Origin: Bryobacterales bacterium
Lineage (GTDB): Bacteria > Acidobacteriota > Terriglobia > Bryobacterales > Bryobacteraceae
Direction of reading: 5' to 3'
DNA: 64,000 bases
Assembly: GCA_025463005.1 (NCBI GenBank)
Contig: JAOAPR010000065.1
Coordinates: forward strand, 1-64,000
The notes beneath the pieces were generated by a model that was not told where the DNA came from, did no database searches, and saw only the letters and a program-made list of their open reading frames with translations. Both the position numbers and the translations under genes were made by a program. The stretch's first letter is position 1, and each line of letters opens with the position of its first letter. Positions 9,141-55,130 of the stretch are shown here, piece after piece.

Positions 9141-9147
9141 TGACTCC

Positions 9148-12041: not shown

Positions 12042-12112
12042 AGGGGAAACTTCAGTTTAACATGATCGACACGCTGTCCGGGCTGTGGTAAGTTCAAGAA
12101 GTCTCACCGCGC

Positions 12113-12189
12113 GCGCCCGTAGCTCAGTTGGATAGAGCGTCTGGCTACGAACCAGAAGGTCGCATGTTCGAGTCATGCCGGGCGCACCA
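12113..12189 (+). tRNA. tRNA-Arg (anticodon ACG), CCA encoded
   Basis: GCGCCCG acceptor pairs with CGGGCGC, then A-CCA; D arm GCTCAGTTGGATAGAGC; anticodon arm TCTGG-CTACGAA-CCAGA (ACG); T arm GCATG-TTCGAGT-CATGC. Confidence 0.95.
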
Positions 12190-12565: not shown

Positions 12566-12772
12566 CAACGCTCCTCGCACGCTGCTTTAGAAGCATAGCG
12601 CTTTGACGGTTGTGTTAACAGAACATGCATCGGTTCGTGTCCTAGCTGAGGAGCCAAAAACAACTCTCTGGTCCCGCGGAAGCCTGCACCAAGTCAGGCC
12701 AGATCGTGACTCTTTGGAACACTCTGTAAATTCTGTACGCGCTATTCAACGATAGGGGCCCTGCCTGGGGCC

Positions 12773-12801
12773 TTGACACGTAACTCAGAAGGGCATATGC
12801 T
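12773..12801 (+). promoter_or_regulatory. Candidate sigma-70 promoter for the TonB receptor gene
   Basis: TTGACA (12773-12778), 17-nt spacer, TATGCT (12796-12801), about 110 nt upstream of the GTG start. Confidence 0.5.
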
Positions 12802-12911
12802 TCTCCCCAATTGGACGCCTTCCGGGGGAACGGAATGGTGTCTTTCTCCGGTGATGCTTGGGTGACAGATCTTAATTCAATCTTGATTTAAATCTCGGCA
12901 GGGAGGCTTAC

Positions 12912-38452: not shown

Positions 38453-40492
38453 ATGCGACGAACCTTGTTTGGATTGTTGGGGACGGTGGTGCTGTGCGGG
38501 TTAATAGCGTGGCCCGCCGCCGGTCAGCAAGGCGCCAAGAACGGCGAGTGGCGGACCTACGGCGGCGACCTCGGGAATACCCACTACTCGCCGCTCGATC
38601 AGATCAGCGCAAGTAACTTCGATAAGCTCGAAGTCGCCTGGCGATTCAAGACCTCGAACCTAGGCCCGCGTCCCGAGTTCAACCTCGAATCGACGCCCCT
38701 GATGGCCAACGGCGTCCTCTATGCCGCGGCGGGAACAAGGCGCTCGGTTGTCGCGCTCGACGCCGCCACCGGAGAGCTTCTATGGGTACACGGCGAGCGC
38801 GAAGGCGCGCGAGGTAGCGCGGCTCCTCGTCAATTATCCGGCCGCGGCCTGGCTTACTGGACAGATGGCCGCGAGGAGCGGATTCTTTACGTGACGCCTG
38901 GTTACCGCATGGTCGCGCTGAATGCGAAGACCGGCGATCCCGTCTCCGGCTTCGGCCAGGGCGGAGTCGTCGACTTGAAGCTGGAAGATGACCAGCAGAT
39001 CGATCTGGTCACGGGCGAAGTGGGGTTGCATGCGACCCCGGTGGTCGCGGGCGACACCGTGATTGTCGGCGCCGCGCACCGGTCGGGCGGAGTGCCGCGA
39101 AGTAAAACCAACGTCAAAGGCTACGTCCGTGGATTCGACGTGCGGACCGGCAAACGCCTTTGGATCTTCCACACCATTCCGCGCCCGGGAGAGTTCGGAT
39201 ATAACACCTGGGAGAAAGATTCCGCGGACTACACAGGGAATGCAGGTGTGTGGGGCCAGATCAGCGTGGATGAAGAGTTGGGCATGGCCTACCTCCCGGT
39301 GGAACTCCCGACCGGTGACTATTACGGAGGTCATCGCCCCGGGGCTGGGCTGTTCGGCGAAAGCCTCGTCGCGGTGGACCTGAAAACCGGCCAGCGCAAA
39401 TGGCATTACCAGCTAGTGCACCACGGAATCTGGGACATGGACATTCCGTGCGCTCCGATTCTGGCCGACATCAGCATCAACGGCCGGACGGTGAAGGCCG
39501 TCGCGCAGCCCACCAAGCAGGCGTTTCTCTATGTTTTCGATCGCGCAACGGGCCAGCCGATCTGGCCGATCGAGGAAAAGCCCGTGGAGAAAGGCACAGT
39601 TCCCGGCGAATGGTACTCACCCACGCAGCCATTTCCGAGCAAGCCGCCGGCCTATGACCGGCAGGGTTTCCAACTTGAGGATCTGATCGATTTCACGCCG
39701 GCTCTTCATGCCGAGGCGGTGAAAATGGCGGCGTTGTACAAGCTCGGGCCGGTCTTCACGCCGCCGGTGGTCAGCAAGGTGGATGGCCCCCTGGCCACGC
39801 TAGCCTTGGCCACCGCAGGCGGCGGCACGAATTGGGCCGGCGGCTCCTACGATCCTGAGACTCATAGGGTCTACGTGTTCTCGCAACGTTCTATCAGCAC
39901 GCTCGGGCTGGTTCCCGGCGATCCCAGAATGACCGATGAAGCCTATATCCAGGGGTCGGCACGAACTGGCGCTCGGACCTCGGGGGGAGCGGGCGCGGAT
40001 GCCGCCCAGGACACCAGACCAGCCGCGGCCCGCGAGGGCGATGGAGGGGGAGGCCTGACCGTCCAAGGGCTGCCGCTAGTGAAGCCGCCGTATGCCAGCA
40101 TCAGCGCCATCGATCTGAATCGAGGGGAGATACTCTGGCAGGTTGCACATGGGGAAACTCCGGATAACATCCGCAATCACCCGGCCCTCAAGGGCTTGAC
40201 GATACCGCGCACCGGCCGACCGGGCGTCATAGGCACCCTGGTGACCAAGACTCTGATGATCGCAGGCGAACGCGACTTCTTCACGACGCCCTCAGGCCAG
40301 AAAGGCGCCATGCTGCGCGCTTACGACAAGGCATCCGGCAAAGACGCCGGCGCGGTTTACATGCCGGCCGGGCAAACTGGTACGCCGATGACGTATATGT
40401 TGAATGGCAAGCAGTACATCGTTGTAGCGATCGGCGGAACCGGGTATGAGGCGGAATTCATCGCGTTCCGGCTGCCCAATTCGACCCCTTAG
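38453..40492 (+). CDS. Exported PQQ-dependent dehydrogenase (glucose dehydrogenase-like quinoprotein)
   Basis: ORF 38435..40492; ATG 38453 preceded by AAAGGAGGGG. GEWRTYGGDLGNTHYSPLDQISASNFDKLEVAWRFKT; HHGIWDMDIPCAPILADISINGRTVKAVAQPTKQAFLYVFDRATGQPIWPIEE. Confidence 0.92.
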   Translation: MRRTLFGLLGTVVLCGLIAWPAAGQQGAKNGEWRTYGGDLGNTHYSPLDQISASNFDKLEVAWRFKTSNLGPRPEFNLESTPLMANGVLYAAAGTRRSVVALDAATGELLWVHGEREGARGSAAPRQLSGRGLAYWTDGREERILYVTPGYRMVALNAKTGDPVSGFGQGGVVDLKLEDDQQIDLVTGEVGLHATPVVAGDTVIVGAAHRSGGVPRSKTNVKGYVRGFDVRTGKRLWIFHTIPRPGEFGYNTWEKDSADYTGNAGVWGQISVDEELGMAYLPVELPTGDYYGGHRPGAGLFGESLVAVDLKTGQRKWHYQLVHHGIWDMDIPCAPILADISINGRTVKAVAQPTKQAFLYVFDRATGQPIWPIEEKPVEKGTVPGEWYSPTQPFPSKPPAYDRQGFQLEDLIDFTPALHAEAVKMAALYKLGPVFTPPVVSKVDGPLATLALATAGGGTNWAGGSYDPETHRVYVFSQRSISTLGLVPGDPRMTDEAYIQGSARTGARTSGGAGADAAQDTRPAAAREGDGGGGLTVQGLPLVKPPYASISAIDLNRGEILWQVAHGETPDNIRNHPALKGLTIPRTGRPGVIGTLVTKTLMIAGERDFFTTPSGQKGAMLRAYDKASGKDAGAVYMPAGQTGTPMTYMLNGKQYIVVAIGGTGYEAEFIAFRLPNSTP

Positions 40493-40528
40493 GAAGTAAC
40501 CTATCGCTCTGCAACCCCGCCATATATA

Positions 40529-41461
40529 ATGGCTTACGTGATTTGCGCATCGAATCGTCGCGATTTCATCCGGACCCTAGCCGGTGGCGTCGCAGGTCTG
40601 TCGTTGTCTCGGGCGCAGACCGGCTCTACGCCGATCACCGCCATCACGCTCGCCGATAATTTCATTCACATCGCCGGAGCCGGATCGAACGTCCTCCTGG
40701 TTACCGGACCCGACGGCGTGTTGCTGGTCGACGGCGGTTCGCCGGAACACTCGGCTGAGTTGCTGAAGGTAGTCGCCGAACAGTCGGGTGCGCGCAAAGT
40801 ACAAACGCTTTTCAACACCCACTGGCATCTGGAAAGCACGGGATCGAATGACGTCCTGGGCAAAGCCGGGGCGAAGATTATCGCGCATGAAAACACCAAG
40901 CTCTGGATGGGCACCGACATCATCTGCAAGTGGCAGAACCGGACCTATCAGCCTCGTGCGAAGGAAGCGCTTCCGAACCAGACCTTCTACACCACCGGGA
41001 AAATGACGTTCGGCAAAGAACAGGTGGTGTACGGGTACCTCGGACAGGCGCACACCGATGGCGATATCTATGTATTCTTCCCCGGACCCAACATATTGAT
41101 GACCGGCGACGTCTTTTCCGTCGGCCAATACCCGATCCTCGATTACACCACCGGTGGCTGGATCGGCGGGCTTTCTGACGCGTGTAAAACACTTCTCAAT
41201 ATAGGTGATGCCCAGACGCGCATTATTCCCGGCGTCGGTCCGGTGCAGGCTAAGGCGGATTTGCAGGCTCAGGCCGATATGTGCGCGACGATGCGCACCA
41301 AGTTCGTTGAGCTGATGAGGAAAGGCATGGGCGCAAAAGACATGCTGGCCGCCGCGCCTACCAAGGACTTCGACGCCAAGTGGGGAAATCCCGAACTGTT
41401 CATCATGAATGCCTATCCGGGCTTGTGGGGACACGTTCGCGAGGTGGGTGGGATCGTTTAG
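40529..41461 (+). CDS. Metallo-beta-lactamase-fold protein, Tat-exported, incomplete metal site
   Basis: 310 aa; RRDFIRTLAGG signal; FNTHWHLESTGSN, GQAHTDGDIYVFFPGPNILMTGDVF, RIIPGVGPVQ. In-frame GTG at 40538 is an alternative start. Confidence 0.82.
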   Translation: MAYVICASNRRDFIRTLAGGVAGLSLSRAQTGSTPITAITLADNFIHIAGAGSNVLLVTGPDGVLLVDGGSPEHSAELLKVVAEQSGARKVQTLFNTHWHLESTGSNDVLGKAGAKIIAHENTKLWMGTDIICKWQNRTYQPRAKEALPNQTFYTTGKMTFGKEQVVYGYLGQAHTDGDIYVFFPGPNILMTGDVFSVGQYPILDYTTGGWIGGLSDACKTLLNIGDAQTRIIPGVGPVQAKADLQAQADMCATMRTKFVELMRKGMGAKDMLAAAPTKDFDAKWGNPELFIMNAYPGLWGHVREVGGIV

Positions 41462-41475
41462 TTAGGGAGATCTGA

Positions 41476-43845
41476 ATGCGCTACGTTGTCGCTGCAGTTA
41501 CTGTCGGGCTGGCCCTTATCTCCCTTTCAGGACACCTTGGCGCTCAGCAGAGAACTGTTCAGGCGGCGAACGCGGCATCGGCAAAAGCTCTTCTCGACAA
41601 ATACTGCGTCACCTGCCACAACCAGCGCCTGAAAACCGCGAATCTCACGTTCGACACCATGGATCTCGCGCATGTGTCCAACGACGGCGCCGTTTGGGAA
41701 AAAGCGGTGCGGAAACTGCGGGGCGGGATGATGCCTCCTCCGGGCGCGCCGCGGCCGGAACTGACCGCAGTGGATTCCTTCGTGACATGGCTCGAAACTT
41801 CTCTGGACCAAGCCGCGGCCGCCAACCCCAATCCGGGGAGCGTGGCGCTTCATCGGCTCAACCGCACCGAATATGCCAATGCGATGCGCGAGCTGTTTGG
41901 AATCGACGTGGACGCCGCGGCTCTCCTGCCCGCAGATGATATGTCCGATGGGTTCGACAATATTGCGAACGTGCTCAAGGTATCGCCGTCATTTTTGGAC
42001 CAATACATAACCGCCGCGCGGGCCGTAACACTTCAGGCTATCGGTAAGCCAGCTCCAGCGGAGGCAGTGCGCGTTACCCTTCGCGGAAATCCCGCCGAGC
42101 CGGGCGATCTTCCCCTAGGCACCCGTGGCGGAACGGTGGCCGAGTATCTCTTCCCAGCCGACGGCGAGTACGAATTCCGCATGGCAGGGGGCGGCGGAGG
42201 GGGTCGAGGCGGCCGGGGTGCTGCTCCCGCTGCCGATCCCGAAAGCGTCGTCGTGACTTTGGACGACGTCAAAATTTCCACCCTCGGGCGCGTGAACGTG
42301 AAAGCCGGAGTGCACAAGATCGCGGTCAGCACTCCGGCCCGGAGTTTCATCGAAAACGAATCTACCCTGCAAGCGTTTGTTCCCGGCGGAAGCGGCCCGG
42401 CCTACGGCGGAGCAGGCGGCGGACGCGGAGGCGGGCCCCCAGCCGTCACGGTCAACGGTCCGTTCAATCCCGCGGGCAATCGCGTCGAAGCCGGCAGCCG
42501 CCAGCGCATTTTCGTCTGTCATCCACCGGATGCGAGCGAAGAAGCTGCATGCGCTTCGCGGATTTTTACGAACATTGCGCACCGGGCGTTCCGAAGGCCA
42601 GTGACGGACCGCGACGTGGCCGCGCCGCTCGCGTTCTTTAAGCAGGCTCGGGCGGCTGGCGATTTCGAGAAGGGCATCGAAGGAGGCCTGATCGCGATTC
42701 TGGCGAGTCCCAAATTCCTGTACCGCGCTGAAATCCCACCGCAGAGCGTCGCCGCCGGCGCGATGTATCGCATCAGCGATCTCGAGCTCGCTTCCCGGCT
42801 GTCGTTCTTTCTGTGGAGCAGCCTTCCGGACAACGAGCTGCTCACCGTCGCGGAACAGGGCAAGCTCAAGGATCCGGCGGTTCTGGAGCAGCAGGTCAAG
42901 CGCATGCTGGCGCAACCCCAAGCGAAGTCGCTGGTCACGAACTTTGCGTTCCAGTGGCTGAAGCTGCGCGACATGGCAAGCTTTGAGCCCGACCCCATCA
43001 TTTATCCCAGTTTCGATGCGAGCCTGCGCCGGGCATTTCAACGCGAAATGGAACTGTTCGTCGAGAGCGTGTTCCATGAAGACCGCAGCACGCTCGATCT
43101 GCTCAAAGGCGACTACACCTTCGTCAACGAACGTCTCGCGCTGCACTACGGCATCCCCAACGTCCGCGGCGACCAGTTCCGTCGCGTCACGCTGGCCGAT
43201 CCGAATCGGTGGGGCCTGCTCGGCAAGGGCGCGATTTTGATGGTGACGTCCTATCCCAACCGGACCGCTCCGGTGCTGCGCGGCGCGTTTATTCTCGAAA
43301 ACATCGCCGGGACGCCGCCCTCGCCTCCGCCGCCCAACGTGGAGGCGTTTAAGGAAAACAAGGAAGGCGAGAAGGCCAAGACCGTGCGCGAGATCATGGA
43401 GCAGCATCGCGCGAGTCCTTCTTGCAACGCATGTCACGGAGTCATGGATCCCTTGGGCTTCGCGTTCGAGAATTACGACTCGATCGGTACCTGGCGGAAC
43501 AAGGACAAGTACGCGCGCACGCTGATCGATTCGGCCGGGAAGCTGGTGGATGGGACCTCGGTCAACGGTCCCGCAGACGTACGCGCGGCCCTGATGAAGC
43601 ATCCCGACCAGTTCGTGCAGACCATGACCGAAAAGCTGTTGACCTACGGGCTGGGCCGGCGTCTCGAATACTACGACATGCCGGGTGTCCGCAAGATCGT
43701 GCGCGACGCCGCGCGCGATGATTATCGGTTCTCCTCGGTGGTGATGGGTATCGTGAAGAGCGCGCCATTTCAGATGAGCGTCAGGGGTACGGAAACGGCC
43801 CCCAAGAATACGGAAACGGCGTCAAACAAAAAGGCTGGGAATTGA
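41476..43845 (+). CDS. DUF1592/DUF1588/DUF1587/DUF1585-type exported protein with two CxxCH motifs
   Basis: 789 aa, signal peptide; LLDKYCVTCHNQRLKTANLTFD; LHRLNRTEYANAMRELFGIDVDAAALLPADDMSDGFDNIANVL; ASRLSFFLWSSLPDNELL; CNACHGVMDPLGFAFENYD. Confidence 0.9.
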   Translation: MRYVVAAVTVGLALISLSGHLGAQQRTVQAANAASAKALLDKYCVTCHNQRLKTANLTFDTMDLAHVSNDGAVWEKAVRKLRGGMMPPPGAPRPELTAVDSFVTWLETSLDQAAAANPNPGSVALHRLNRTEYANAMRELFGIDVDAAALLPADDMSDGFDNIANVLKVSPSFLDQYITAARAVTLQAIGKPAPAEAVRVTLRGNPAEPGDLPLGTRGGTVAEYLFPADGEYEFRMAGGGGGGRGGRGAAPAADPESVVVTLDDVKISTLGRVNVKAGVHKIAVSTPARSFIENESTLQAFVPGGSGPAYGGAGGGRGGGPPAVTVNGPFNPAGNRVEAGSRQRIFVCHPPDASEEAACASRIFTNIAHRAFRRPVTDRDVAAPLAFFKQARAAGDFEKGIEGGLIAILASPKFLYRAEIPPQSVAAGAMYRISDLELASRLSFFLWSSLPDNELLTVAEQGKLKDPAVLEQQVKRMLAQPQAKSLVTNFAFQWLKLRDMASFEPDPIIYPSFDASLRRAFQREMELFVESVFHEDRSTLDLLKGDYTFVNERLALHYGIPNVRGDQFRRVTLADPNRWGLLGKGAILMVTSYPNRTAPVLRGAFILENIAGTPPSPPPPNVEAFKENKEGEKAKTVREIMEQHRASPSCNACHGVMDPLGFAFENYDSIGTWRNKDKYARTLIDSAGKLVDGTSVNGPADVRAALMKHPDQFVQTMTEKLLTYGLGRRLEYYDMPGVRKIVRDAARDDYRFSSVVMGIVKSAPFQMSVRGTETAPKNTETASNKKAGN

Positions 43846-43861
43846 GAAAGGGAGTTTTCAA

Positions 43862-45178
43862 ATGTACATAACCAAGAAGCATCTCCCCCGGCGGACATTT
43901 TTGCGCGGCATGGGCACTGCGATCGCTCTGCCGTTGCTCGACGCCATGATCCCGGCCCGGACGGCGCTGGCGCAGACCGCTGCGAATCCGACCCCTCACC
44001 TGGGATTCATCTATTTCCCACACGGCGCCATCATGAATCAGTGGACGCCGAAGACGGAAGGCGCCGGCTTCGAGCTTTCGCCGATTCTCAAGCCGCTGGC
44101 TCCCTTCCAGAAACAGTTGACTGTTGTGAGCGGCCTCGCCAACCGACCAGCCGTCAGCCCGGCCGTGCATGCGATTACTCCCGGAACATGGTTGAGCTGC
44201 GTTCATCCGCGCGCGAGCCAGGATCCTTACGGCGGCCCTACGGTCGACCAGATCGCCGCGCGCCACATCGGCCAGGACACGCCCTTCCCATCGCTCGAAA
44301 TCGCGACCGAGACACGCGGCGGAGGCGGTTCATGCGATCGCGACTTCGGTTGCAGCTATGCCGGCACGATTTCCTTCCGTACCCCCAGCAATCCCCTGCC
44401 GATGGAAAACGATCCACGCAAACTGTTCCAGCGGCTGTTCGGCCAAGGCGACACGCCCGACGAGCGAAAGAGAATCTCCAAGCAGTATTCGAGCGTGCTG
44501 GACCTGGTTTCCCAGGAAGCCTCCGATCTGCGCCGCAGCTTAGGCCCGCAGGACAGTGCAATGCTCGGCGATTATCTCGACACTGTCCGTGAAATCGAGC
44601 GGCGCGTTGAGAAAATGGACGCGCGCGATCTTTCCCACGTCAACATCCCCGATACGCCCGGCGGCGTTCCTCCCAGCTTCGAGCAGCACATCAGCCTGTT
44701 GTTCGATCTGGTGGCCGTCGCGTATCAGGCCAATATGACCCGGGTTTTTAGTTTCATGATGGCGGCCGAGGTCAGCGGGCTGACCTACAACCAGATCGGT
44801 GTCTCCGATGCGTTCCATCCGCTATCGCATCACAACAACGAGCAGGCCAAGATGGATCGGCTGGTGAAAATCCAGACCTATCACACCGACATCTTCGCCA
44901 AGTTCCTGGCCAAACTCCAGAAGATGCCGGACGGCGACGGCACCATGCTCGATCATTCGATCATTCTGTACGGCAGCAACATGAGCAACAGCAATCTGCA
45001 CAATCACGATCCGCTGCCAACAGCGCTGGTGGGCGGATGGAAATCGGTCAAAGGCGGCCAGCATCTGCGGTATCCCGACCAGACTCCGCTGGCCAATATG
45101 CTCCTCACCATACTCGATCGCGCGGGAGTTCCCGAGGAGAAATTCGGCGACAGCTCCGGCAAGTTCGCGGAGGTTTAA
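43862..45178 (+). CDS. DUF1552 domain-containing protein, Tat-exported
   Basis: 438 aa; KHLPRRTFLRGMGTAIALPLLDAMIPA; LGFIYFPHGAIMNQWTPKTEGAGFELSPILKPLAPFQKQLTVVSGL; typical partner of DUF1592 genes. Confidence 0.9.
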   Translation: MYITKKHLPRRTFLRGMGTAIALPLLDAMIPARTALAQTAANPTPHLGFIYFPHGAIMNQWTPKTEGAGFELSPILKPLAPFQKQLTVVSGLANRPAVSPAVHAITPGTWLSCVHPRASQDPYGGPTVDQIAARHIGQDTPFPSLEIATETRGGGGSCDRDFGCSYAGTISFRTPSNPLPMENDPRKLFQRLFGQGDTPDERKRISKQYSSVLDLVSQEASDLRRSLGPQDSAMLGDYLDTVREIERRVEKMDARDLSHVNIPDTPGGVPPSFEQHISLLFDLVAVAYQANMTRVFSFMMAAEVSGLTYNQIGVSDAFHPLSHHNNEQAKMDRLVKIQTYHTDIFAKFLAKLQKMPDGDGTMLDHSIILYGSNMSNSNLHNHDPLPTALVGGWKSVKGGQHLRYPDQTPLANMLLTILDRAGVPEEKFGDSSGKFAEV

Positions 45179-45180
45179 TC

Positions 45181-46587
45181 ATGAAGACGTGGTTTCTGGC
45201 TGCTCTTGTCGTGACCTCGGCGTTTGCCGCTGACGTCAACGCTCCTTCGTCTGACGGCACTACTCCGCTGCACTGGGCTGCGCACAACAACGACGCCGCT
45301 CTCGTGGACAAGCTCCTCAAAGCCGGGGCCGACGCCAAGGCCAGGAACGAATTCGGCGCAACGCCGATGTCTGAAGCCGCGTTCAACGCGAACACCGAGA
45401 TCATTGAGAAGCTGCTCAAAGCCGGCGCCGATCCCGACTCTCCGTCGGCCGACGGCCAAACCGCCTTGATGTTGATCGCGCGATCGAGTAACGTAACGGC
45501 GGCTAGACTTTTACTCGAACACGGCGCGCACGTGAACGCGAAGGAAAAACAGAAGGACCAGACGGCTCTGATGTGGGCGGCCGCGCAACGCCAGGGACCG
45601 ATGGTGAGGGAATTGGTCGCGCATGGAGCCGACGTGAACGCGCGGACCGTCGTGAACGATGTCCCGTCGCAGGTCAGCACCGAGCCGCGTGCGCAGTATC
45701 GGTCCTACGGCGGGCTTACAGCGATGCTGTATGCAACCCGCGAAGGCTGTCTCGAGTGCGTCAAAGCCATGGTTGAAGGGAAGGCCGACCTGAATCTGGC
45801 GGATCCGGAAGGCGTCACTCCCCTGATTACGGCGATCTGGAACGCCCATTGGGATACTGCGGCGTATCTGATCAAAGCTGGCGCGAATGTGAACAAGTGG
45901 GATTGGTGGGGACGAAGCCCGCTATATCTCGCGGTCGATTACAACACGCTTCCTCATGGCGGAAGGCCCGATGCTCCGTCGATCGATGACACCACGCCTC
46001 TGCAGGTGATCGAACAGCTTTTGAATGCAGGAGCCAACCCGAATCTGCAATTGAAGCTGCTGCCTCCCTACCGGAGCATCGGCTCGGATCGTGGGGTGGA
46101 TGCCATGCTGACCATCGGGGCTACGCCGCTGCTGCGGGCAGCCAAGGCTCTGGATGCGCCTGCGATTCGTCTGCTTCTCGAACACGGCGCAAAGGTTGAC
46201 CTTCCCAATAACCAGGGAATCACGCCGACCATGGCGGCGGCAGGACTGGGATCAGTCGACGCAGACACGCGCGGACTCTATACGACGTTTGACGTGCAAC
46301 AGAAGTCCATCGAGTCGCTCGATCTTCTGCTTAAAGCTGGTGGCGATATCAACGCGCCCGGCGGACGAAGGATGCAGACCCCGCTCCACGCCGCAGCGTT
46401 CTGGGGATGGAACGACGTGGTGCAGTACTTAGTGGACCACGGCGCCAAGCTCGATGTGAAAGATTCCGGCGGCATGTCACCCATCGACGCGGCGCTGGGC
46501 AAAGCGGGCGGCAACAGCCGAGGCGGCCAGCGCATCGATGTGCATGAGGACACCGCGGCTTTGCTCCGGAAGCTCGGCGTAAAGTAA
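45181..46587 (+). CDS. Exported ankyrin-repeat protein
   Basis: ORF 45037..46587; ATG 45181 starts MKTWFLAALVVTSAFAADV signal peptide, then many ankyrin repeats (DGTTPLHWAAHNNDAALVDKLLKAGADAKARNEFGATPMSEAA...). Confidence 0.92.
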   Translation: MKTWFLAALVVTSAFAADVNAPSSDGTTPLHWAAHNNDAALVDKLLKAGADAKARNEFGATPMSEAAFNANTEIIEKLLKAGADPDSPSADGQTALMLIARSSNVTAARLLLEHGAHVNAKEKQKDQTALMWAAAQRQGPMVRELVAHGADVNARTVVNDVPSQVSTEPRAQYRSYGGLTAMLYATREGCLECVKAMVEGKADLNLADPEGVTPLITAIWNAHWDTAAYLIKAGANVNKWDWWGRSPLYLAVDYNTLPHGGRPDAPSIDDTTPLQVIEQLLNAGANPNLQLKLLPPYRSIGSDRGVDAMLTIGATPLLRAAKALDAPAIRLLLEHGAKVDLPNNQGITPTMAAAGLGSVDADTRGLYTTFDVQQKSIESLDLLLKAGGDINAPGGRRMQTPLHAAAFWGWNDVVQYLVDHGAKLDVKDSGGMSPIDAALGKAGGNSRGGQRIDVHEDTAALLRKLGVK

Positions 46588-46589
46588 AA

Positions 46590-46680
46590 AGTGGGGCAGG
46601 CTTTCCAGCCGGCGCTCTATACAAGGACAGCGAGGTGCCGAGCGGAAGCCCGGCTGCAGCCTCGAAAGGCTGACCCCACT
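46590..46680. repeat. REP-like long imperfect palindrome between convergent genes
   Basis: AGTGGGGCAGGCTTTC (46590-46605)...GAAAGGCTGACCCCACT (46664-46680), inner arms CAGCCGG (46606-46612)/CCGGCTG (46650-46656). Confidence 0.6.
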
Positions 46681-46687
46681 ATTGCGG

Positions 46688-47335
46688 CTAGCGCTTCACC
46701 TGATCGACGTCCACATCGAGGTTGTGGCCGATCCGGAACCCGATCTGGCCATCCGCGTGGATCTTGCTCTTGGGTTGGCGCGCGACTTCCATGCCGTTGA
46801 CGGTGAAGATCACGTTATCGCCCTGGACCTGGATGCCCAGCGTATTGGTCTGCTTGCCGTCAGCGCCCTGCTTGACGATGGCCGGGTTCGCGGTCCAGTC
46901 CACTACTGTTTTCGGCCCCGATCCCTCCCAGTTGGCGATGAAATACTCGCCCTGATTGCGGACCAGGAAATAGGTATAAGTCGGCGTCGGGCCCATATTC
47001 GTGCCGCCGATCACCAGTCCATAGGAAATTGGGTGGGAGGGCCGTTGCAACTGGGTCAGGCGCGCCGAGTAAGTGTAGTTGCCTGACTTGATCCAATCGT
47101 TGCGATAGAACGTTCCAGCGGATCCCATCTGGAAGTGGTAGACGTCCCCTGCCTGGGAGAACTTGATTCCCGCGGGAGTTCCGCGATCCGGGCGTACATT
47201 CCAGCCGGCTGGAAACTGCCCGCCGGTAACGGCCCGATCCGGGTCATTCTTCCCGCCCTCTTGGGCAGACGCCACGGCACTGACCAAAGCGAACATCAAA
47301 ACGAGCGTACGGAGTTTATGAAAGTGATTGATCAT
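46688..47335 (-). CDS. DUF1080 (3-keto-disaccharide hydrolase-like) exported protein
   Basis: ORF 46688..47569; ATG at 47335 gives signal peptide MINHFHKLRTLVLMFALVSAVASAQ. NYTYSARLTQLQRPSHPISYGLVIGG; DNVIFTVNGMEVARQPKSKIHADGQIGFRIGHNLDVDVDQVKR. Confidence 0.7.
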   Translation of the reverse strand: MINHFHKLRTLVLMFALVSAVASAQEGGKNDPDRAVTGGQFPAGWNVRPDRGTPAGIKFSQAGDVYHFQMGSAGTFYRNDWIKSGNYTYSARLTQLQRPSHPISYGLVIGGTNMGPTPTYTYFLVRNQGEYFIANWEGSGPKTVVDWTANPAIVKQGADGKQTNTLGIQVQGDNVIFTVNGMEVARQPKSKIHADGQIGFRIGHNLDVDVDQVKR

Positions 47336-47426
47336 AACGGAGATCCTAATGGCGAGTATATCAGTCCGCCTTCGGCGGGTGTTTGTTATACACTCTTTGG
47401 ATATCTCTAAGTGGGAGGCACACCGA

Positions 47427-49436
47427 ATGTTCGTCACCCGGCTAAAATCATGGGCGCTGGCGCTGCCAGTCGCCGCGTTCGTCATCTGGAATCTGACGCC
47501 CGCACGCGGGCAGCAGGGAACGCCTGCAACCGGCGAGTGGCGCGTGAACGGAGGCGACACCGGTAGCACCCGCTATTCGCCGCTGGATCAGATCAGCGCG
47601 ACGAACGTCAAGAATCTGCAGGTAGTCTGGCGCTGGAAGGCTCAGAACATGGGGCCCGCGCCGCAGGCCGCCTGGGAAGTGACTCCGCTGATGGTGGGCG
47701 GCAGACTGTTCTTCACCGCAGGTACCGGGCGGACCGTAATCGCCGCCGACGCCGCCACCGGCGAGACCCTGTGGACCTATCGCGGTGACGATACCGCCGA
47801 GCGTGGCGCCGTGCGCGCCAATAATCGCGGAGTAAGCTACTGGAGCGATGGCCGCGGCGACGATCGGATCCTGTTCATCACGCCTGGCTACCAACTGGTC
47901 GCGTTGAATGCCAAGACCGGGGCGCCCGTTTCAACTTTCGGAAAAGACAGTCACGTAGACCTGTGGCTCGGCCTCGACCGGCCGGTGGTGCAGAACGGAA
48001 CCATTGGCGCGACCTCCCCGCCGATCATTATTCGCGATGTTGCAGTGGTGGGCGCTTCTCTCAAGGTCGGCGTCGCGCTGCCCACCCGGCTGAACACCCC
48101 GGGCTACATCCGCGGCTATGACGTCCGCACCGGCAAGCTGCTGTGGACCTTCCACACCGTTCCCCAAGCGGGCGAATTTGGGGTCGAAACCTGGGGCAAA
48201 GACGACCGCGGTCAGGATTCGTGGAAATTTACCGGCAACACCGGCGCCTGGGGACCGTTGACCGGCGATGAAGAGCTCGGCTACGTCTATATTCCCGTCG
48301 AGGCGCCCAGTGGCGATACCTACGGCGGCCAGCGTCCTGGAGCGAACCTGTTCTCCGATAGCGTTGTGTGTCTCGACGCGAAAACCGGCAAGCGCGTGTG
48401 GCACTACCAGTTAATCCACCACGAAATGTGGGATTACGATATTCCCGCCGCGCCCATTCTGCTTGATATTACGGTGAACGGAAAAAAGATCAAAGCCCTG
48501 GCGCAGGTGAATAAGTCGGCGTTTACGTTCGTGTTCGACCGCACCAACGGGCAGCCGGTGTGGCCCATAGAGGAGCGTGCGGTGCCCCAAGGCAGCGCGC
48601 CTGGCGAGTGGTATTCGCCCACGCAACCGTTTCCCACCAAGCCCGCGGCGTTCGATCGCCAGGGCGTCACCGAAGCCGACTTGGCCGATTACACGCCCGC
48701 GATCAAAGCCGAAGCTTTGAAGGTCGCCTCGCAATATGTTCTTGGGCCGATCTACACGCCGCCGATCGTCAAGGATACCGGCGGCAAGCTGGGAACCATT
48801 CAGCTTCCGGGCGCGGGCGGCGGGGCCAACTGGATGGGCGGGGCGGTCGATCCCGAAACGGGGATGCTGTACATCCCCTCGACCACCAGTCCGTACATCT
48901 CGTCACTGGTTCCGGGCGGCGAGCGTTCGGAGATGCCGTACATCGCCGGTGGTGGGGGCGGAAACACCAACGTGGCGGGCAACCTGCCGCTGATCAAGGG
49001 TCCATATGGACGCATCACGGCATTCAATCTCAACACCGGCGACCAGGCCTGGATGATTCCCAACGGCAAGCCCGCGGACGCGGTGGTGAACAATCCCGCG
49101 CTAAAAGCCGCCGGGATCGACGCCAGCAACTGGGGTGGCGGGCAGCGCTCGCCTATCCTCGTGACGAAGACCATGTTGGTGGAAGGCAGCGCCGACCTGC
49201 GCTTCATCGACAAGAAGACCGGAGCTGTCATCCATGAAATGCCGCTAGGCTCGAATGTAGGCCCCACCATGACGTATCTGGTCAACGGGCGGCAGTTCCT
49301 GGTCGCCGTCGTGAACGGTACTCAGGGCGGCGGTGCTGAGCTGGTCGGATTGGCCATCGCGCAACCCGGAGCAGCAGGGGCCGGTGGCCGTGGCGGACGC
49401 GGTGGTCGAGGTGGAGCGGCGCCTCCAGAAAACTAG
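47427..49436 (+). CDS. Exported PQQ-dependent dehydrogenase (paralog of 38453..40492)
   Basis: ATG 47427 after GGGAGG; GEWRVNGGDTGSTRYSPLDQISATNVKNLQVVWRWKAQ; HHEMWDYDIPAAPILLDITVNGKKIKALAQVNKSAFTFVFDRTNGQPVWPIEE. Confidence 0.92.
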   Translation: MFVTRLKSWALALPVAAFVIWNLTPARGQQGTPATGEWRVNGGDTGSTRYSPLDQISATNVKNLQVVWRWKAQNMGPAPQAAWEVTPLMVGGRLFFTAGTGRTVIAADAATGETLWTYRGDDTAERGAVRANNRGVSYWSDGRGDDRILFITPGYQLVALNAKTGAPVSTFGKDSHVDLWLGLDRPVVQNGTIGATSPPIIIRDVAVVGASLKVGVALPTRLNTPGYIRGYDVRTGKLLWTFHTVPQAGEFGVETWGKDDRGQDSWKFTGNTGAWGPLTGDEELGYVYIPVEAPSGDTYGGQRPGANLFSDSVVCLDAKTGKRVWHYQLIHHEMWDYDIPAAPILLDITVNGKKIKALAQVNKSAFTFVFDRTNGQPVWPIEERAVPQGSAPGEWYSPTQPFPTKPAAFDRQGVTEADLADYTPAIKAEALKVASQYVLGPIYTPPIVKDTGGKLGTIQLPGAGGGANWMGGAVDPETGMLYIPSTTSPYISSLVPGGERSEMPYIAGGGGGNTNVAGNLPLIKGPYGRITAFNLNTGDQAWMIPNGKPADAVVNNPALKAAGIDASNWGGGQRSPILVTKTMLVEGSADLRFIDKKTGAVIHEMPLGSNVGPTMTYLVNGRQFLVAVVNGTQGGGAELVGLAIAQPGAAGAGGRGGRGGRGGAAPPEN

Positions 49437-50539
49437 ACGGCGCGCGTGCTAACCTGCGCGAAGCGGTTCTTCCATCGCAGGAACGGGCTCTCCAGATACC
49501 GATAGGAGAGCGCCGCGAGCGCGACGGTCAGCGAAAACGCGATCAGTAGCACTACGGGTCCGGGGAGCGACGCCGCTTTCTGCACCAGCCGGATCGCTGC
49601 CACGTGGAATACGTAGAGTCCGTAACTGATCTTCCCTAAATATGTAAGGATCCTGGGCGTTCTCGCACCATCGGGAGCGAAGCTGCCGTAGAAGATCGCC
49701 ACGCACCCGGCGGCAGCTAATGGATAGGTCAGAAGCCATATCCAGCCGGGGTCTTTGAGCACGCTTCCTGCGACCCACAGCGCCACGCTTCCGCTCGCGA
49801 TCCACATTATCCGGCCACGCAGAGTGTGTTTAGGAATTCTTCCGCGAAGCAATAAAGCCAGCAACGCCCCGCCCGCAATCGGGTCGAGCCGTGCGAACGT
49901 GTTCGTCCAGATCGCTGCCTCGCTCGCGTGATGGCCGATCAGAAATGCGCGCGTGATCGTGGCGATTACCAACATCCCGACGGCACACAGAGGCATGGAA
50001 GATCCGCAAAGTCGCATCAGCCACGGCCACACGACGTAGAATTGCTCTTCAATCGACACTGACCATAGCAGCGCAAGGGATGTCGGAAACAGGTTCCACC
50101 AGGCGCAGGCCCAGTTGCCCGCGAAAAAGAGGAACGCCAGCCAAAAATTTCCGGACATCTGGTCCGCAGGCATGGCGATTGCCAGCAGGGGAAGCAGCAC
50201 CAGCAGAGCAAAGTAGTACAGCGGCCAGATCCGCAGGATCCTCCGGATGTAGAACGCGCGAATATCGAATGAGCCCCGTGCGCGCTGCTCCCGCAGCAGC
50301 AGTTCGGTGATCAGGTAGGCACTCAGAGCGAAGAACAGGTCGACACCCAGCGCTCCGGCGCGCGCTCCTGCTGCCAAGAACGCCGCGAGAGTATGCGGAA
50401 CTCCCCAGCCTACGTATTCGGCCGCGGTGAGCGGGAATCCATGGTGGATAAACACCAGCAGGAACGCCCCGAATCGAAGCACGTCCAACTCCGGGCGATA
50501 GAAGTGTCGGCGGCTTTCCGCGACAATGCTTTCTGCCAT
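49433..50539 (-). CDS. Acyltransferase family 3 membrane protein
   Basis: 368 aa; FYRPELDVLRFGAFLLVFIHHGFP; ALGVDLFFALSAYLITELLLREQ; multiple TM segments. Confidence 0.92.
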   Translation of the reverse strand: MAESIVAESRRHFYRPELDVLRFGAFLLVFIHHGFPLTAAEYVGWGVPHTLAAFLAAGARAGALGVDLFFALSAYLITELLLREQRARGSFDIRAFYIRRILRIWPLYYFALLVLLPLLAIAMPADQMSGNFWLAFLFFAGNWACAWWNLFPTSLALLWSVSIEEQFYVVWPWLMRLCGSSMPLCAVGMLVIATITRAFLIGHHASEAAIWTNTFARLDPIAGGALLALLLRGRIPKHTLRGRIMWIASGSVALWVAGSVLKDPGWIWLLTYPLAAAGCVAIFYGSFAPDGARTPRILTYLGKISYGLYVFHVAAIRLVQKAASLPGPVVLLIAFSLTVALAALSYRYLESPFLRWKNRFAQVSTRAV

Positions 50540-50560
50540 GTGTTAACTTGCTGAAGATAC

Positions 50561-51064
50561 ATGGTACTGACAAAAGAAGAACTCATCGCGTCCCTGCAGA
50601 ATGAGGTTCGAATCCTGCTCCACCTGGCGAGCAAGATCGATCGCAACCAACTGGACTACCGGCCCACACCGAAACAGCGCAGCACCATCGAACTGCTTCG
50701 ATACCTTACGATCATGGGACCCAACCTGATCCCGGCGATCAAGACCGGGGCTTTCGATGGCGCAGCCTTTGGCGCCGCCCAGGCCGCGGCCAATGCCATG
50801 AACTTCGATCAAATCATCGCCGCAATTGAAAAGCAGAGCAGCGACTACGCCCAACAACTCGGCGGATTCTCGGATGCCGATTTCCGCGGCGAGATCGACA
50901 TGTTCGGCCGCAAAACCAGCCGCGGCTCGCTGATCGTGAACATGGTGCTGTGTGGCTTTGCGGCATACCGGACTCAGCTATTCTGCTACTTGAAAGCCTG
51001 CGGACGCGACGAGTTGAATACCATGAATCTCTGGGCCGGCATGGACGGTCCGATGCAAGGCTGA
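50561..51064 (+). CDS. DinB-like helical-bundle protein
   Basis: 167 aa; MVLTKEELIASLQNEVRILLHLASKIDRNQLDYRPTPKQRSTIELLRYLTIMGP; DinB-like pattern. Confidence 0.55.
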   Translation: MVLTKEELIASLQNEVRILLHLASKIDRNQLDYRPTPKQRSTIELLRYLTIMGPNLIPAIKTGAFDGAAFGAAQAAANAMNFDQIIAAIEKQSSDYAQQLGGFSDADFRGEIDMFGRKTSRGSLIVNMVLCGFAAYRTQLFCYLKACGRDELNTMNLWAGMDGPMQG

Positions 51065-51085
51065 TTGGTCGCGAAAGGAATTCCC

Positions 51086-52870
51086 GTGCTCAAAACCCTG
51101 CTTGCTGCTCTGATCGCAATTCAGTTCGTTCATGCTCAGGCTGCCCGTCCGCTAAGCCCCGATGAGTGGACCACCTACGGGCTCACCCCGGGCGAGACGC
51201 GCTACAGCCCACTGAACCAAATCAACGCGTCCAACGTGAGCCGGCTAGGTCTCAACTGGTCCTTCGATGTGGGCCGCGGCGGCGGTAACCAGGAAGCTAC
51301 GCCTTTATTCGCGAACAGCACGCTCTACAGCATCACGAACTGGAGCATCGTTTTCGCCGTCGACGCGCGCACCGGCAAGGAAAAGTGGCGCTGGGATCCG
51401 GAGGTCAATCAGGATAAAGTCCGCCCCCAAATCTGCTGCGGTGTAGTGAATCGCGGCCTCGCGCTGTATCAAAACCTGATCATCGCACCGGTCATCGACG
51501 GCCGCCTGATCGCTCTGAATGCGGAAACCGGAAAGCCGGTTTGGGAGGCCCGCGTGTCCTATTCGAACGAAGGCTACACCGTGACCATGGCGCCGCGCAT
51601 CGCGAAGGGGAAAGTGATCATTGGGGTCGCTGGCGCCGAACTTCCAATCCGCGGATTTTTCGCCGCCTATGACGCCGCTACCGGTAAATTCGCCTGGCGC
51701 TTTTACACCGTTCCCGGCGATCCCTCGAAACCGTTCGAAAATCCCGCGCTCAAGAAAGCCGCGGAAACCTGGTCGGGCGACTATTGGAAGCTCGGTGGCG
51801 GCGGATCCGTGTGGGACGGCATGGCTTACGATCCGGACGCCGATCTCCTCTACGTCGGCACCGGCAATGGCGGTCCATGGCCCGAGGAGCTGCGCAAGTC
51901 CAAGGGTAAGGAGAACCTGTATCTGGCTTCGATTCTCGCTGTGAAGCCCGATACCGGCGAGCTCAAATGGTATTTCCAAGTGGTGCCGGGCGATTCCTGG
52001 GATTACGACAGCGTGCAGCAGTTGTTGCTCGCCGACGTGACCATACGGGGCCAGCAACGCAAGGTCCTGATGCAGGCCAACAAAGACGGGTTCTACTACG
52101 TGATCGACCGCGTCTCCGGCCAGTTCATCTCAGGCCAGGCCTATGCCAAAGTCACATGGGCGAGAGGATTGGACGAACGCACCGGCCGCCCTTTCGTCAA
52201 TCCTGAAGCGCACTATGGCACCGAATCCATCCAGATCTCGCCCGGACCGGGTGGCGCGCACAACTGGGCGCCGATGTCGTTCAATCCTGCGACCGGGTTG
52301 GTTTACGTGCCGACTGCTATGGTGAGTAGTTCCAACTTCGCGATCGATCCCGAGTTCACCGTTAAACCGGGTCGCAGCAACCTGGGTGTGAAGCGCGGTG
52401 CGCCTCCAGCGAACGGCCAAGGTGTTGCGCCGCCACCGCCTCCGACTCTCCCGCCTCCTCCGGCAATAGGTCCTGAAGCTCCTCCCGCCGGTCAAACGAA
52501 CGTGCTGGTCGCCTGGGACCCGGTAACGCAGAAAGAACGCTGGCGGACCCTCGGCGGCGGATCGATTGGCGGGGGGACGGTGACTACCGCAGGCAACCTG
52601 GTGATCCAGGTGATTCCCGACGGGCGCCTGGTCGCTTACAGCGCGGACAAAGGCGAAAAACTCCTCGACATCCAGACCGGACTTCGCGGCGGCATGGGTC
52701 CTCCGATCACGTATCAGTTGGACGGCAAACAGTACATCGCGCTGATGGGCGGAACGGGCGTCGTGATCGCTCGCAGCGCCGAACCGGGCGCTCCACCGCC
52801 TCCGCCGACCGCACAGACGGTGCTGCCCAAGCTAATGACGTTCGTCCTGGACGGGAAGCCCCTGCAGTAG
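51086..52870 (+). CDS. Quinoprotein alcohol dehydrogenase (vicinal-disulfide type)
   Basis: ORF from 51065; GTG 51086 preceded by AAAGGA, signal peptide. EWTTYGLTPGETRYSPLNQINASNVSRLGLNWSFDVG; PQICCGVVNRGLALY; PGDSWDYDSVQQLLLADV; proline-rich insert VAPPPPPTLPPPPAIGPEAPP. Confidence 0.92.
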   Translation: MLKTLLAALIAIQFVHAQAARPLSPDEWTTYGLTPGETRYSPLNQINASNVSRLGLNWSFDVGRGGGNQEATPLFANSTLYSITNWSIVFAVDARTGKEKWRWDPEVNQDKVRPQICCGVVNRGLALYQNLIIAPVIDGRLIALNAETGKPVWEARVSYSNEGYTVTMAPRIAKGKVIIGVAGAELPIRGFFAAYDAATGKFAWRFYTVPGDPSKPFENPALKKAAETWSGDYWKLGGGGSVWDGMAYDPDADLLYVGTGNGGPWPEELRKSKGKENLYLASILAVKPDTGELKWYFQVVPGDSWDYDSVQQLLLADVTIRGQQRKVLMQANKDGFYYVIDRVSGQFISGQAYAKVTWARGLDERTGRPFVNPEAHYGTESIQISPGPGGAHNWAPMSFNPATGLVYVPTAMVSSSNFAIDPEFTVKPGRSNLGVKRGAPPANGQGVAPPPPPTLPPPPAIGPEAPPAGQTNVLVAWDPVTQKERWRTLGGGSIGGGTVTTAGNLVIQVIPDGRLVAYSADKGEKLLDIQTGLRGGMGPPITYQLDGKQYIALMGGTGVVIARSAEPGAPPPPPTAQTVLPKLMTFVLDGKPLQ

Positions 52871-52871
52871 G

Positions 52872-54416
52872 CTACTCTACCGACAGCGCCAGTAAAACAT
52901 TTCCCGGGATTCCGTTCCGGACACCGACGTAACCGGACGGGACATACAACGTTCCACCGGCCACCACCGGTCCTGCCGCGCCCATGGATCCACCTTTCGC
53001 AGCTACCCCGTTCACTGTGGTGAATTCCTGAATGGTGTTGTACTCCCACGCGATTTTCCCGTCGGTGGCAGAGAGCGCGCGCAGCACTCCGTCCCACCCG
53101 CCCGAAAACACCATGCCAGGAATCGCGGTCAGCGGACCCTCGTGTCCGGGGTGTTGCGCGAGCGCGGGCGCCAGTTCCGGCTTGGTGAACCATTTCCGCT
53201 CGCCGTCCCTGAGCTGCACGGCGGCGATCCCTCCGGGACCGAGGCCGAAGTAAGCGTTCTGGTCGTCAGCCGCCCCGCCCCACACGATCTTTCCGCCGAA
53301 CTCGCTGGTATTATTCACCAGCGCGGTTTTCCAGATCACCGCGCCTTTCTGATCGGGATCGTGGGCCCAGACGTTGCCGCTTTTCTGCCCCGCCACCAGG
53401 ATGGTCCGTCCACTGGGTAAAGTCTTCAAAATCGGCGGTGATCCGAAGTCGTGATCCGGCCCTAATTCCTTGGGACAGTTTTCGGGAAGCGTCGCGCCGT
53501 TGCATCCTGCGAGCCATGCATCCTTTCCGGTATCCTGGACCGACCACTGGATCTTGCCGGTGTTCAGGTCCAGAGCCATAATCGCGTCAGTCGTGTCGGG
53601 CGCCGGTTCGGTGTAAGCGTCACCTGTGCCTATGTAGAGCACATGGCGCGCCGGATCGATAGTGGGCGAATTCCAAACTCCACCGCCCGCCGGAGCGAAC
53701 CGCTGCACGCCGTTGGAGTTTTTCCCGGCCGGCTTGGGTTCATCTGAAATGGTGTAGGTTTTCCAGACTTGCTTGCCCGTCGCGGCATCCAGCGCGACTA
53801 CGCTGCCGCGAAATGTGCAGCACGGATAGTTTCGGTTGGTGCCCGCGCCTTCTTCGCCTGACGCCACCGGCACGTACACGCGCCCTTCGTATACCTTGAG
53901 ACCGCCCGTGATTCTCGCCGAGGCGTGATCGTCCACGTGGACCTTCCAGATTTGCTGGCCGGTAGCCGCATCCACCGCGTACGCGTTGGCTTTGCCGTCA
54001 CCGAAATAGGCGGCGTAATTTGTGCCGAGGCGTTCGATGGTGACCGCGCTGCGCACTCCTGCGTCCGCCTGGAACGACCAATATACGCATCCCGAACCGG
54101 CGTCGAGCGAGTAAACGGCTCCCGTATCGACTCCGACTAACACGCGTCCCGCCGCAACGGACGGCTGCCCGTATACCGATTTGGCGCCGGGGAATCCGAA
54201 CGCCCATTTCAGCTTGAGCCGAGGTACGTCGGCAACTCCGATCTGGACGCTTTTCTGAAAACGGGTATTGGCGAGGCCCGCGCCCCAGCCATTCCAGGAC
54301 GCACTCACGGCAGGATCGCCGAACTTCTCGTTGGCCGGGCATTGGCCGGTCTGGGCAGCCAGACTGTGGGCGAACCAAAACAGGCAGGCGCACGATAACG
54401 CCGGGAGTCTTTTCAT
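52872..54416 (-). CDS. PQQ-binding-like beta-propeller dehydrogenase (polyvinyl-alcohol dehydrogenase-like)
   Basis: 514 aa with signal peptide; WNGWGAGLANTRFQKSVQIGVADVPRLKLKWAFGFPGAKSVYGQPSVAAGRVLVGVDTGAVYSLDAGSGCVYWSFQADAGVRSAV. Confidence 0.82.
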   Translation of the reverse strand: MKRLPALSCACLFWFAHSLAAQTGQCPANEKFGDPAVSASWNGWGAGLANTRFQKSVQIGVADVPRLKLKWAFGFPGAKSVYGQPSVAAGRVLVGVDTGAVYSLDAGSGCVYWSFQADAGVRSAVTIERLGTNYAAYFGDGKANAYAVDAATGQQIWKVHVDDHASARITGGLKVYEGRVYVPVASGEEGAGTNRNYPCCTFRGSVVALDAATGKQVWKTYTISDEPKPAGKNSNGVQRFAPAGGGVWNSPTIDPARHVLYIGTGDAYTEPAPDTTDAIMALDLNTGKIQWSVQDTGKDAWLAGCNGATLPENCPKELGPDHDFGSPPILKTLPSGRTILVAGQKSGNVWAHDPDQKGAVIWKTALVNNTSEFGGKIVWGGAADDQNAYFGLGPGGIAAVQLRDGERKWFTKPELAPALAQHPGHEGPLTAIPGMVFSGGWDGVLRALSATDGKIAWEYNTIQEFTTVNGVAAKGGSMGAAGPVVAGGTLYVPSGYVGVRNGIPGNVLLALSVE

Positions 54417-54515: not shown

Positions 54516-54759
54516 GAAAGTCACCAACATTCACGAAGCCAAGACGCACTTCTCCAAGCTAGTGGAGCGCGCGGCCGCCGGCGAAGAAATCGTCATCGGT
54601 AAGGCGGGCAAGCCAGTGGCGCGGCTAGGGCCGTATCGGGAGTCCGCCGCCGTCCCCAAACGAAAGCCGGGATCGTTGAGAGGGAAGATCAAGATCCTTC
54701 CGGGATTTGACAAGGTGGACAAAGAAATCGGGAAACTGTTCACCGGTGAACTCGATTGA
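54514..54759 (+). CDS. Phd/YefM-type antitoxin
   Basis: 81 aa; MKVTNIHEAKTHFSKLVERAAAGEEIVIGKAGKPVARLGPY. Confidence 0.92.
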   Translation: MKVTNIHEAKTHFSKLVERAAAGEEIVIGKAGKPVARLGPYRESAAVPKRKPGSLRGKIKILPGFDKVDKEIGKLFTGELD

Positions 54760-55130
54760 GGCTCCTCCTGGATACTCATATTCTTCTTTGGTGGCTTTCA
54801 TCCGGTACTCGCCTTCCCAAGGGCGCGCGGACTGCGATTGCGGAATGCTCCGCGGCATACGTGAGTGCTGCTACAGCCTGGGAGATCGCGCTTAAGTCGG
54901 CCGCGGGAAAGCTGGAATTTCGCGGTGATCTGGAGGAGCAACTGAAGGTGAACAATTTCTTCCCGCTACCAATCTCCGTCGCACATGCGGTGCTATCAGC
55001 GAAGCTCCCGCGTCATCACGCCGACCCGTTCGACCGAATGCTGGTCGCTCAGGCATCTCTCGAATCACTCACACTGGTGACTGCGGATCCGCAGCTCGCA
55101 GCGTACGAAGTGCAGATCCTTAAGACCTGA
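54756..55130 (+). CDS. vapC: PIN-domain toxin (VapC family)
   Basis: 124 aa, ATGA overlap with antitoxin; MRLLLDTHILLWWL, SAATAWEIALKSAAGKL, HHADPFDRMLVAQASLESLTLVTADPQLAAY. Confidence 0.92.
   Translation: MRLLLDTHILLWWLSSGTRLPKGARTAIAECSAAYVSAATAWEIALKSAAGKLEFRGDLEEQLKVNNFFPLPISVAHAVLSAKLPRHHADPFDRMLVAQASLESLTLVTADPQLAAYEVQILKT

Follow-up and report, generated by a model that had tools for sequence, protein, structure and literature searches.

We analyzed a 64,000-nucleotide (nt) stretch of contig JAOAPR010000065.1 from a Bryobacterales bacterium of the Acidobacteriota (assembly GCA_025463005.1), hereafter the window and its host. Here a first-pass annotation had drawn an island of exported quinoproteins around genes for a metallo-beta-lactamase (MBL)-fold protein, a DUF1592 protein, a DUF1552 protein, and an ankyrin-repeat protein. 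All open reading frames (ORFs) that it named lie where it had placed them (Table 1). The four enclosed genes are as tightly spaced as described, with gaps of 14, 16, and 2 nt, and the MBL gene begins 36 nt downstream of the quinoprotein gene Q1, with which it is possibly co-transcribed here. Purine tracts resembling ribosome sites precede the DUF1592, DUF1552, and ankyrin genes, and scans of the locus for promoters and terminators returned nothing above shuffled sequence. By eye and by hydrophobicity, the N termini of the MBL and DUF1552 proteins carry Tat-type twin arginines (NRRDF and PRRTF, respectively), and those of the DUF1592 and ankyrin proteins are Sec-like. From the comparisons below, the conserved unit is MBL-DUF1592-DUF1552-ankyrin (positions 40529 to 46587), and not the quinoprotein island; linkage within the host and across genomes bears out the grouping of these four genes.

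Table 1. The four-gene unit and its neighbors in the window
Feature	Position	Strand	Basis
MBL-fold protein, Tat-type; fourth component of the window's subtype	40529-41461	+	Pfam Lactamase_B
DUF1592 protein, Sec-like signal, diheme-type	41476-43845	+	Pfam, CxxCH motifs, AlphaFold2 model
DUF1552 (HXXSHH) protein, Tat-type signal	43862-45178	+	Pfam, E 3e-83
Ankyrin-repeat protein, Sec-like signal MKTWFLAALVVTSAFA; DUF1592-DUF1552 partner in this subtype	45181-46587	+	Pfam ankyrin array
Quinoprotein Q1, soluble, related to the membrane glucose dehydrogenases	38453-40492	+	PF01011, E 1.8e-182
Quinoprotein Q2, family as Q1; non-conserved neighbor	47427-49436	+	PF01011, E 4.7e-171
Quinoprotein Q3, alcohol dehydrogenase type; neighbor	51086-52870	+	PF01011, E 2.1e-80
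Q4, quinoprotein-like propeller without the vicinal cysteines of the alcohol dehydrogenase type; neighbor	52872-54416	-	PQQ_2/PQQ, E 4e-26
Exported protein, sub-threshold likeness to 3-keto-disaccharide hydrolase (DUF1080); neighbor	46688-47329	-	PF06439, E 0.0057

The DUF1592 protein comprises the Pfam domains PSD3, PSD5, PSD4 (DUF1592), PSCyt3, and PSD2, that is, DUF1587-1595-1592-1588-1585, all above curated cut-offs. Two CxxCH motifs, CVTCH at the N terminus (residue 44) and CNACH within DUF1588 (residue 650), are kept together with their surroundings in at least 90% of 87 aligned DUF1592 sequences, and the protein is predicted to be a diheme c-type cytochrome. Compared with the PDB by Foldseek, its AlphaFold2 model (pLDDT, 88.9; pTM, 0.88) matched no known fold significantly. 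Within the model, residues ~198 to 333, between DUF1587 and DUF1595, form an inner beta-sandwich of the carbohydrate-binding module (CBM) type, the best structural matches of which are weak and include CBM35, CBM6, PA14, and xylan-binding modules. The same inner slot is called CBM60 or Laminin_G_3 in DUF1592 relatives. By sequence, no significant solved relative was found for either DUF1592 or DUF1552.

The DUF1552 protein matches PF07586 above the cut-off and contains an HxxSHH motif formed by H319, S322, H323, and H324. Foldseek places sulfatases at the top of the matches to its model (pLDDT, 85), many of which act on carrageenan or glycosaminoglycans; the match (E 9e-8) is weak and suggests a sulfatase/alkaline-phosphatase-like fold. 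By eye, the DUF1552 alignment shows no C/S-x-P-x-R, the nucleophile motif of sulfatases, and a polar set of the family's own (H103, D129, D214, D231, R243, E246, H319, H323, D364, and H380) is conserved in 153 copies. For these two reasons, DUF1552 probably has an active metal site of unknown reaction instead of being a dead fold.

Partner fidelity is high in the host genome (6.36 Mb in 342 contigs), which carries 15 DUF1592 genes and 18 DUF1552 genes, 3 of the latter at contig ends. Each of the 15 DUF1592 genes adjoins a DUF1552 gene, and 14 also have an exported ankyrin gene beside them, the 15th sitting on a 6.7-kb contig. Conversely, 16 of approximately 21 host ankyrin genes directly adjoin DUF1552, counting the three extra DUF1552 loci. 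This linkage to DUF1552 and ankyrin is more than chance would give. An MBL gene lies near 3 of the 15. The paralogue distance matrices are correlated as well (Mantel r, 0.83 for DUF1592/DUF1552, 0.73 for DUF1592/ankyrin, and 0.88 for DUF1552/ankyrin; p = 2e-4 each, n = 12), and the ankyrin protein co-diverges with the DUF1592-DUF1552 pair. The first-pass annotation had treated it as accessory; in this subtype it is linked as tightly as DUF1592 itself.

Across other genomes, neighbors were called by BLAST to host proteins (bit score >60), so that distant partners may be missed; contig ends can also hide partners, and the taxonomic labels of metagenome-assembled genomes (MAGs) may err at single loci. 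Among the 80 best-scoring DUF1552 loci, DUF1592 lies beside 75 and ankyrin beside 75. Because this list is skewed to close relatives, we used 60 genomes drawn evenly across the Acidobacteriota as a check. DUF1552 occurs in 9 of these, all 9 of which have DUF1592, and 16 of the 17 copies outside the host have DUF1592 adjacent (8 of 17 for ankyrin). Forty further loci, from 8 genomes reached through hits in this sample, have DUF1592 beside 36, and ankyrin is found beside 10 of the 11 proteobacterial copies among them. The DUF1592-DUF1552 pair thus recurs in Acidobacteriota, Proteobacteria, Planctomycetes, and Verrucomicrobia, which upholds the view of a conserved, under-described, exported multi-protein system. 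Over 152 distinct copies, the pair and its ankyrin gene are arranged in four ways (82, 12, 8, and 2 cases), and on a quick, approximate tree the presence of ankyrin changes 7 times, versus 37.6 in shuffles. From these partner counts, arrangements, and the tree, we infer that DUF1592-DUF1552 is the core and that ankyrin marks a subtype. At one congener locus (L207, genome G020, 8757-13419), the DUF1592 and DUF1552 genes lie ~1 kb apart. An extreme expansion is seen in the Planctomycetaceae MAG G159 (locus L104), with 59 DUF1552 matches, nearly all on separate contigs.

Within the genus, the operon is present in 10 other genomes (DUF1552 identity, 66 to 93%). The window's copy shares 92 to 93% identity with those of two congeners and 60 to 68% with those of many proteobacterial MAGs, a pattern that suggests horizontal movement of the operon in one direction or the other. 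The MBL gene is present in 40 of the 46 rows of the supported DUF1552 clade that contains the window copy, most of them proteobacterial, and so marks a mostly proteobacterial subclade. The MBL protein keeps the three-histidine Zn1 site (H98, H100, and H175), with the Zn2 ligands not conserved. Two more familiar identities were rejected for it: a SoxH-type quinoprotein relay hydrolase (TIGR04558 and TIGR04559, 41 and 66 bits against cut-offs of 300 and 280) and a beta-lactamase (scores far under the cut-offs, no solved relative at E 1e-10). It shares the MBL fold, export, and nearby quinoproteins with the SoxH-related relay zinc metallohydrolases of these two families, yet unlike them it goes with DUF1592-DUF1552 and not with quinoproteins.

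Among the closest known systems are Cellvibrio japonicus Cbp2D and its Teredinibacter relatives TERTU_2913 and TERTU_3803, which combine an X183 cytochrome, DUF1587, and X132. The Cellvibrio protein is laid out as CBM2/FN3/X183/DUF1587/X132 with a C-terminal CxxCH and isolated X183 domains reduce lytic polysaccharide monooxygenases (LPMOs) slowly (PMC8981238), and Cbp2D is described as essential for growth on insoluble cellulose, its authors suspecting a direct role in cleavage (PMC12542752). A Cellvibrio CBM2 protein has been annotated as DUF1592 (PMC6004670). Sampling 274 gammaproteobacterial genomes for DUF1592 relatives, we found two loci (L228 and L229) encoding DUF1592 proteins with three CBM2 modules, FN3, and extra cytochrome c domains, each directly followed by DUF1552. 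At the C terminus both share the window protein's block, DUF1595-1592-1588-1585, and the X132 block of Cbp2D would correspond to it. In the window protein and Cbp2D alike, a cytochrome c domain is followed by DUF1587 and then by a CxxCH block at the C terminus. The window protein lacks Cbp2D's CBM2, FN3, and YceI domains and has the inner beta-sandwich slot; because neither CBM2 nor the YceI-like X158 domain was found in it with Pfam, we regard it as a Cbp2D relative and not an orthologue.

At L228 (4962-11638) and L229 (4741-11230), the CBM2-bearing gene overlaps DUF1552, after which comes a gene for a Tat-type flavoprotein resembling flavocytochrome c sulfide dehydrogenase. In these two genomes the trio resembles a single operon, with the flavoprotein standing in place of the window's ankyrin and MBL genes. 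A third locus (L230, 5621-13672) encodes a natural fusion of 2,237 amino acids that unites starch-binding modules (CBM26, four copies), a sugar dehydrogenase (GSDH), and cytochrome c domains with DUF1587-1595-1592-1588-1585, again with DUF1552 directly following. Dehydrogenases recur as partners in several kinds, by fusion (GSDH), beside DUF1552 (flavoproteins), and as the quinoproteins of the window. The fusion and the flavocytochrome-type enzymes at two loci lend indirect support to the general idea of a dehydrogenase feeding a DUF1592 cytochrome.

Since heme sites coincide with an inner sandwich, CBM-bearing relatives, and recurring dehydrogenases, redox chemistry on carbohydrate-like polymers is suggested, and the window set is most likely a periplasmic or secreted redox module for the breakdown of glycans or other polymers. 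That the four genes at 40529-46587 constitute one copy of a conserved exported redox system with a DUF1592-DUF1552 core, working as follows, is a reading in which we place middling confidence. A glycan or similar polymer fragment would dock in the carbohydrate-module-like slot between DUF1587 and DUF1595. Electrons would pass among the two hemes of DUF1592 and a periplasmic donor or acceptor, whereby a bond of the substrate would be oxidatively activated or cleaved. DUF1552 would be the second half of the active unit, contributing metal-dependent bond chemistry or completing the active site. The ankyrin protein may serve as a scaffold for the putative complex or as a helper that loads or protects the hemes of DUF1592, and the MBL-fold protein may process a lactone, an ester, or another such product. 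The 15 paralogous sets would probably handle different substrates. Dehydrogenases of the neighboring type, which use pyrroloquinoline quinone (PQQ), may supply or withdraw electrons in certain strains and would be interchangeable. The data themselves establish the domains, heme motifs, export-type signals, conservation, and linkage of the partners, as well as the domain set in common with Cbp2D-like proteins; the complex, its class of substrate, the electron path, and the catalytic roles are deduced.

A more specific version of this proposal, which we put forward tentatively and consider rather unlikely as a whole, is that DUF1592 and DUF1552 together make up a secreted, oxidative depolymerase of two proteins and two hemes, of a class not described before. 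This would be the missing active unit of Cbp2D-dependent cellulose breakdown. Planctomycetes and Bryobacteraceae would have multiplied it to tens of copies to suit different polymers, and the ankyrin subtype would be assembled on an exported ankyrin scaffold.

Several observations weigh against the polymer-directed redox system. The carbohydrate-module matches of the window DUF1592 protein are non-significant (best E, ~0.05), the sulfatase match of DUF1552 has a TM-score of ~0.4, and no cluster of carbohydrate-active enzymes was seen around the operon. The relation to the C-terminal half of Cbp2D runs through the published domain order and the Cbp2D-like sequences found here, and the X183 domains of Teredinibacter did not reduce LPMOs (PMC10916295). 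Ankyrin lies beside 1 of 29 planctomycete or verrucomicrobial DUF1552 copies; it would thus be dispensable for the core function, since most of these copies do without it. The PSCyt3/PSD proteins of these phyla have the same Pfam domains as the window DUF1592 protein, and most of their loci differ from the window in having no ankyrin or MBL partner. Our search for a biochemical result on any ankyrin-type member found none.

The first-pass annotation had seen the quinoproteins as the catalysts, the DUF1592 cytochrome as their dedicated electron acceptor, and the MBL, ankyrin, and DUF1080 proteins as accessories. Of its four quinoproteins, Q1 to Q3 are full PF01011 proteins and Q4 is a weaker PQQ_2/PQQ propeller. 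Q1 is co-directional with the MBL gene and close to its 5' end, and Q1-Q3 synteny around the operon is kept in two congeners and at locus L033. Those two are the nearest of ten congeners; the remaining eight have the operon without Q1 and Q2, and with no quinoprotein or a different one. In the host, a window-type quinoprotein lies near 3 of the 15 DUF1592 genes, and 6 of the 18 DUF1552 loci have a quinoprotein gene no more than 10 kb away against 2.35 expected (p ~0.02), a weak enrichment in a genome whose dozens of quinoprotein genes make such neighbors expected. In the even Acidobacteriota sample (up to 18 candidates scored per genome), none of the 17 DUF1552 copies has PF01011 within 10 kb. 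On the host, congener, and phylum data together, we rejected a quinoprotein relay as the core of the system.

Cofactor supply points the same way. Neither PqqC (host and 22 congeners) nor PqqE (all 23 genomes of the genus) was found above cut-off, with PqqC present in 7 of the 101 genomes searched. Q3 matches the 1kv9 alcohol dehydrogenase at its PQQ-site residues, Q1 retains several of these positions, and Q4 is without them. In Q3, a WDYD motif places an Asp two residues past the catalytic Asp, the lanthanide-type alcohol dehydrogenase signature. Assignment to the Acido-empty-quinoprotein group A (TIGR04528) was rejected (best score, 372 bits for Q3, against a cut-off of 650; the Q3 PQQ site is full). 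The host has dozens of PF01011 genes though PqqC and PqqE are missing across the genus. Uptake of PQQ from outside is reported for other Acidobacteria (PMC12124388) and, by analogy, may occur in the host. As in methanol and ethanol PQQ dehydrogenase systems, a quinoprotein here stands beside a c-type cytochrome gene; unlike in those systems, the neighborhood is not conserved, the genus shows no PQQ biosynthesis, and the cytochrome is a large diheme DUF1592 protein. Even with the retained PQQ site of Q3 and the single natural GSDH-cytochrome-DUF1592 fusion on its side, the acceptor model is unlikely: given the patchy synteny, the weak enrichment, and the missing PqqC and PqqE, it may apply here and is not what selection kept together. 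The flanking PQQ dehydrogenases are mostly incidental neighbors.

Slightly less probable still is that the principal reaction belongs to DUF1552, as a sulfatase- or phosphatase-like hydrolase of glycans that bear sulfate or phosphate groups, and that DUF1592 oxidizes the freed product. The sulfatases that top its Foldseek matches would fit, as would the frequent proximity of sulfatases to PSCyt genes in Verrucomicrobia (PMC5615132), but the low TM-score, the unseen nucleophile motif, and the different His/Asp set of DUF1552 argue otherwise.

We are a shade more doubtful of a periplasmic stress or detoxification device, in which a diheme peroxidase-like protein would be served by its ankyrin partner as in AnkB or Cj1386. 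These, of Pseudomonas aeruginosa and Campylobacter, respectively, are the nearest precedent for the window ankyrin protein by analogy: they are periplasmic ankyrins required for heme catalases, Cj1386 acting through hemin delivery (PMC7567364). AnkB-KatB and Cj1386-KatA share with the window an exported ankyrin protein and a heme protein in one operon, and the window differs in that the partner is a predicted covalent diheme c-type protein, not a catalase, and that DUF1552 is a third partner. The diheme architecture of DUF1592 and the presence of a DUF1552 gene among stress-responsive genes of Rhodopirellula (PMC2754498) are compatible with such a role. However, Foldseek found no peroxidase fold, and detoxification hardly explains 15 copies per genome or the carbohydrate-binding modules fused or inserted in relatives. 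Finally, that lineage-specific families merely travel together without a joint function is very improbable: the grouping of the window copy with proteobacterial copies suggests whole-cassette transfer, but the association persists in at least four phyla, four arrangements, and 15 paralogous loci per genome.

Beyond these partners, the neighbors that recur near DUF1552 do so less constantly than ankyrin: a "PDLQGIW" family at 16 loci, TonB-type receptors at 11, an NHL-repeat protein at 8, and DUF6152 at 6. The first of these is an exported family without a Pfam match, marked by the motif PDLQGIWDYRTMTPLERP and found at L083 (18896-19909) and 15 other loci, at a median of 1.9 kb. In the window, the DUF1080 label given to the minus-strand ORF after the ankyrin gene has only a PF06439 match below cut-off behind it, a similarity that would fit an oxidative sugar pathway, and the DinB-like call also comes down to a sub-threshold match. 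A small PIN-domain-like (VapC-type) ORF (54756-55130) lies between the quinoprotein island and lepA.

In Verrucomicrobia and Planctomycetes, PSCyt3 genes have been reported usually to adjoin a family of unknown genes (PMC5615132). That pairing has therefore already been noted, and the DUF1592-DUF1552-ankyrin set is little described; in the open-access literature we found no paper linking DUF1592 with DUF1552 or ankyrin, and the consulted passages on Cbp2D mention no partner of the DUF1552 kind. For the exported redox system proposed here, our data predict that DUF1552 is an obligate partner, that ankyrin is a second one in a large subtype, and that the carbohydrate-binding slot is interchangeable. 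They also advise caution in genera without PQQ synthesis, where gene islands rich in PQQ enzymes should not be read as a single system. With up to 59 copies in genomes of Acidobacteriota, Planctomycetes, and Verrucomicrobia, this chemistry may therefore account for a considerable and as yet unrecognized part of the turnover of polymers in soil and water.

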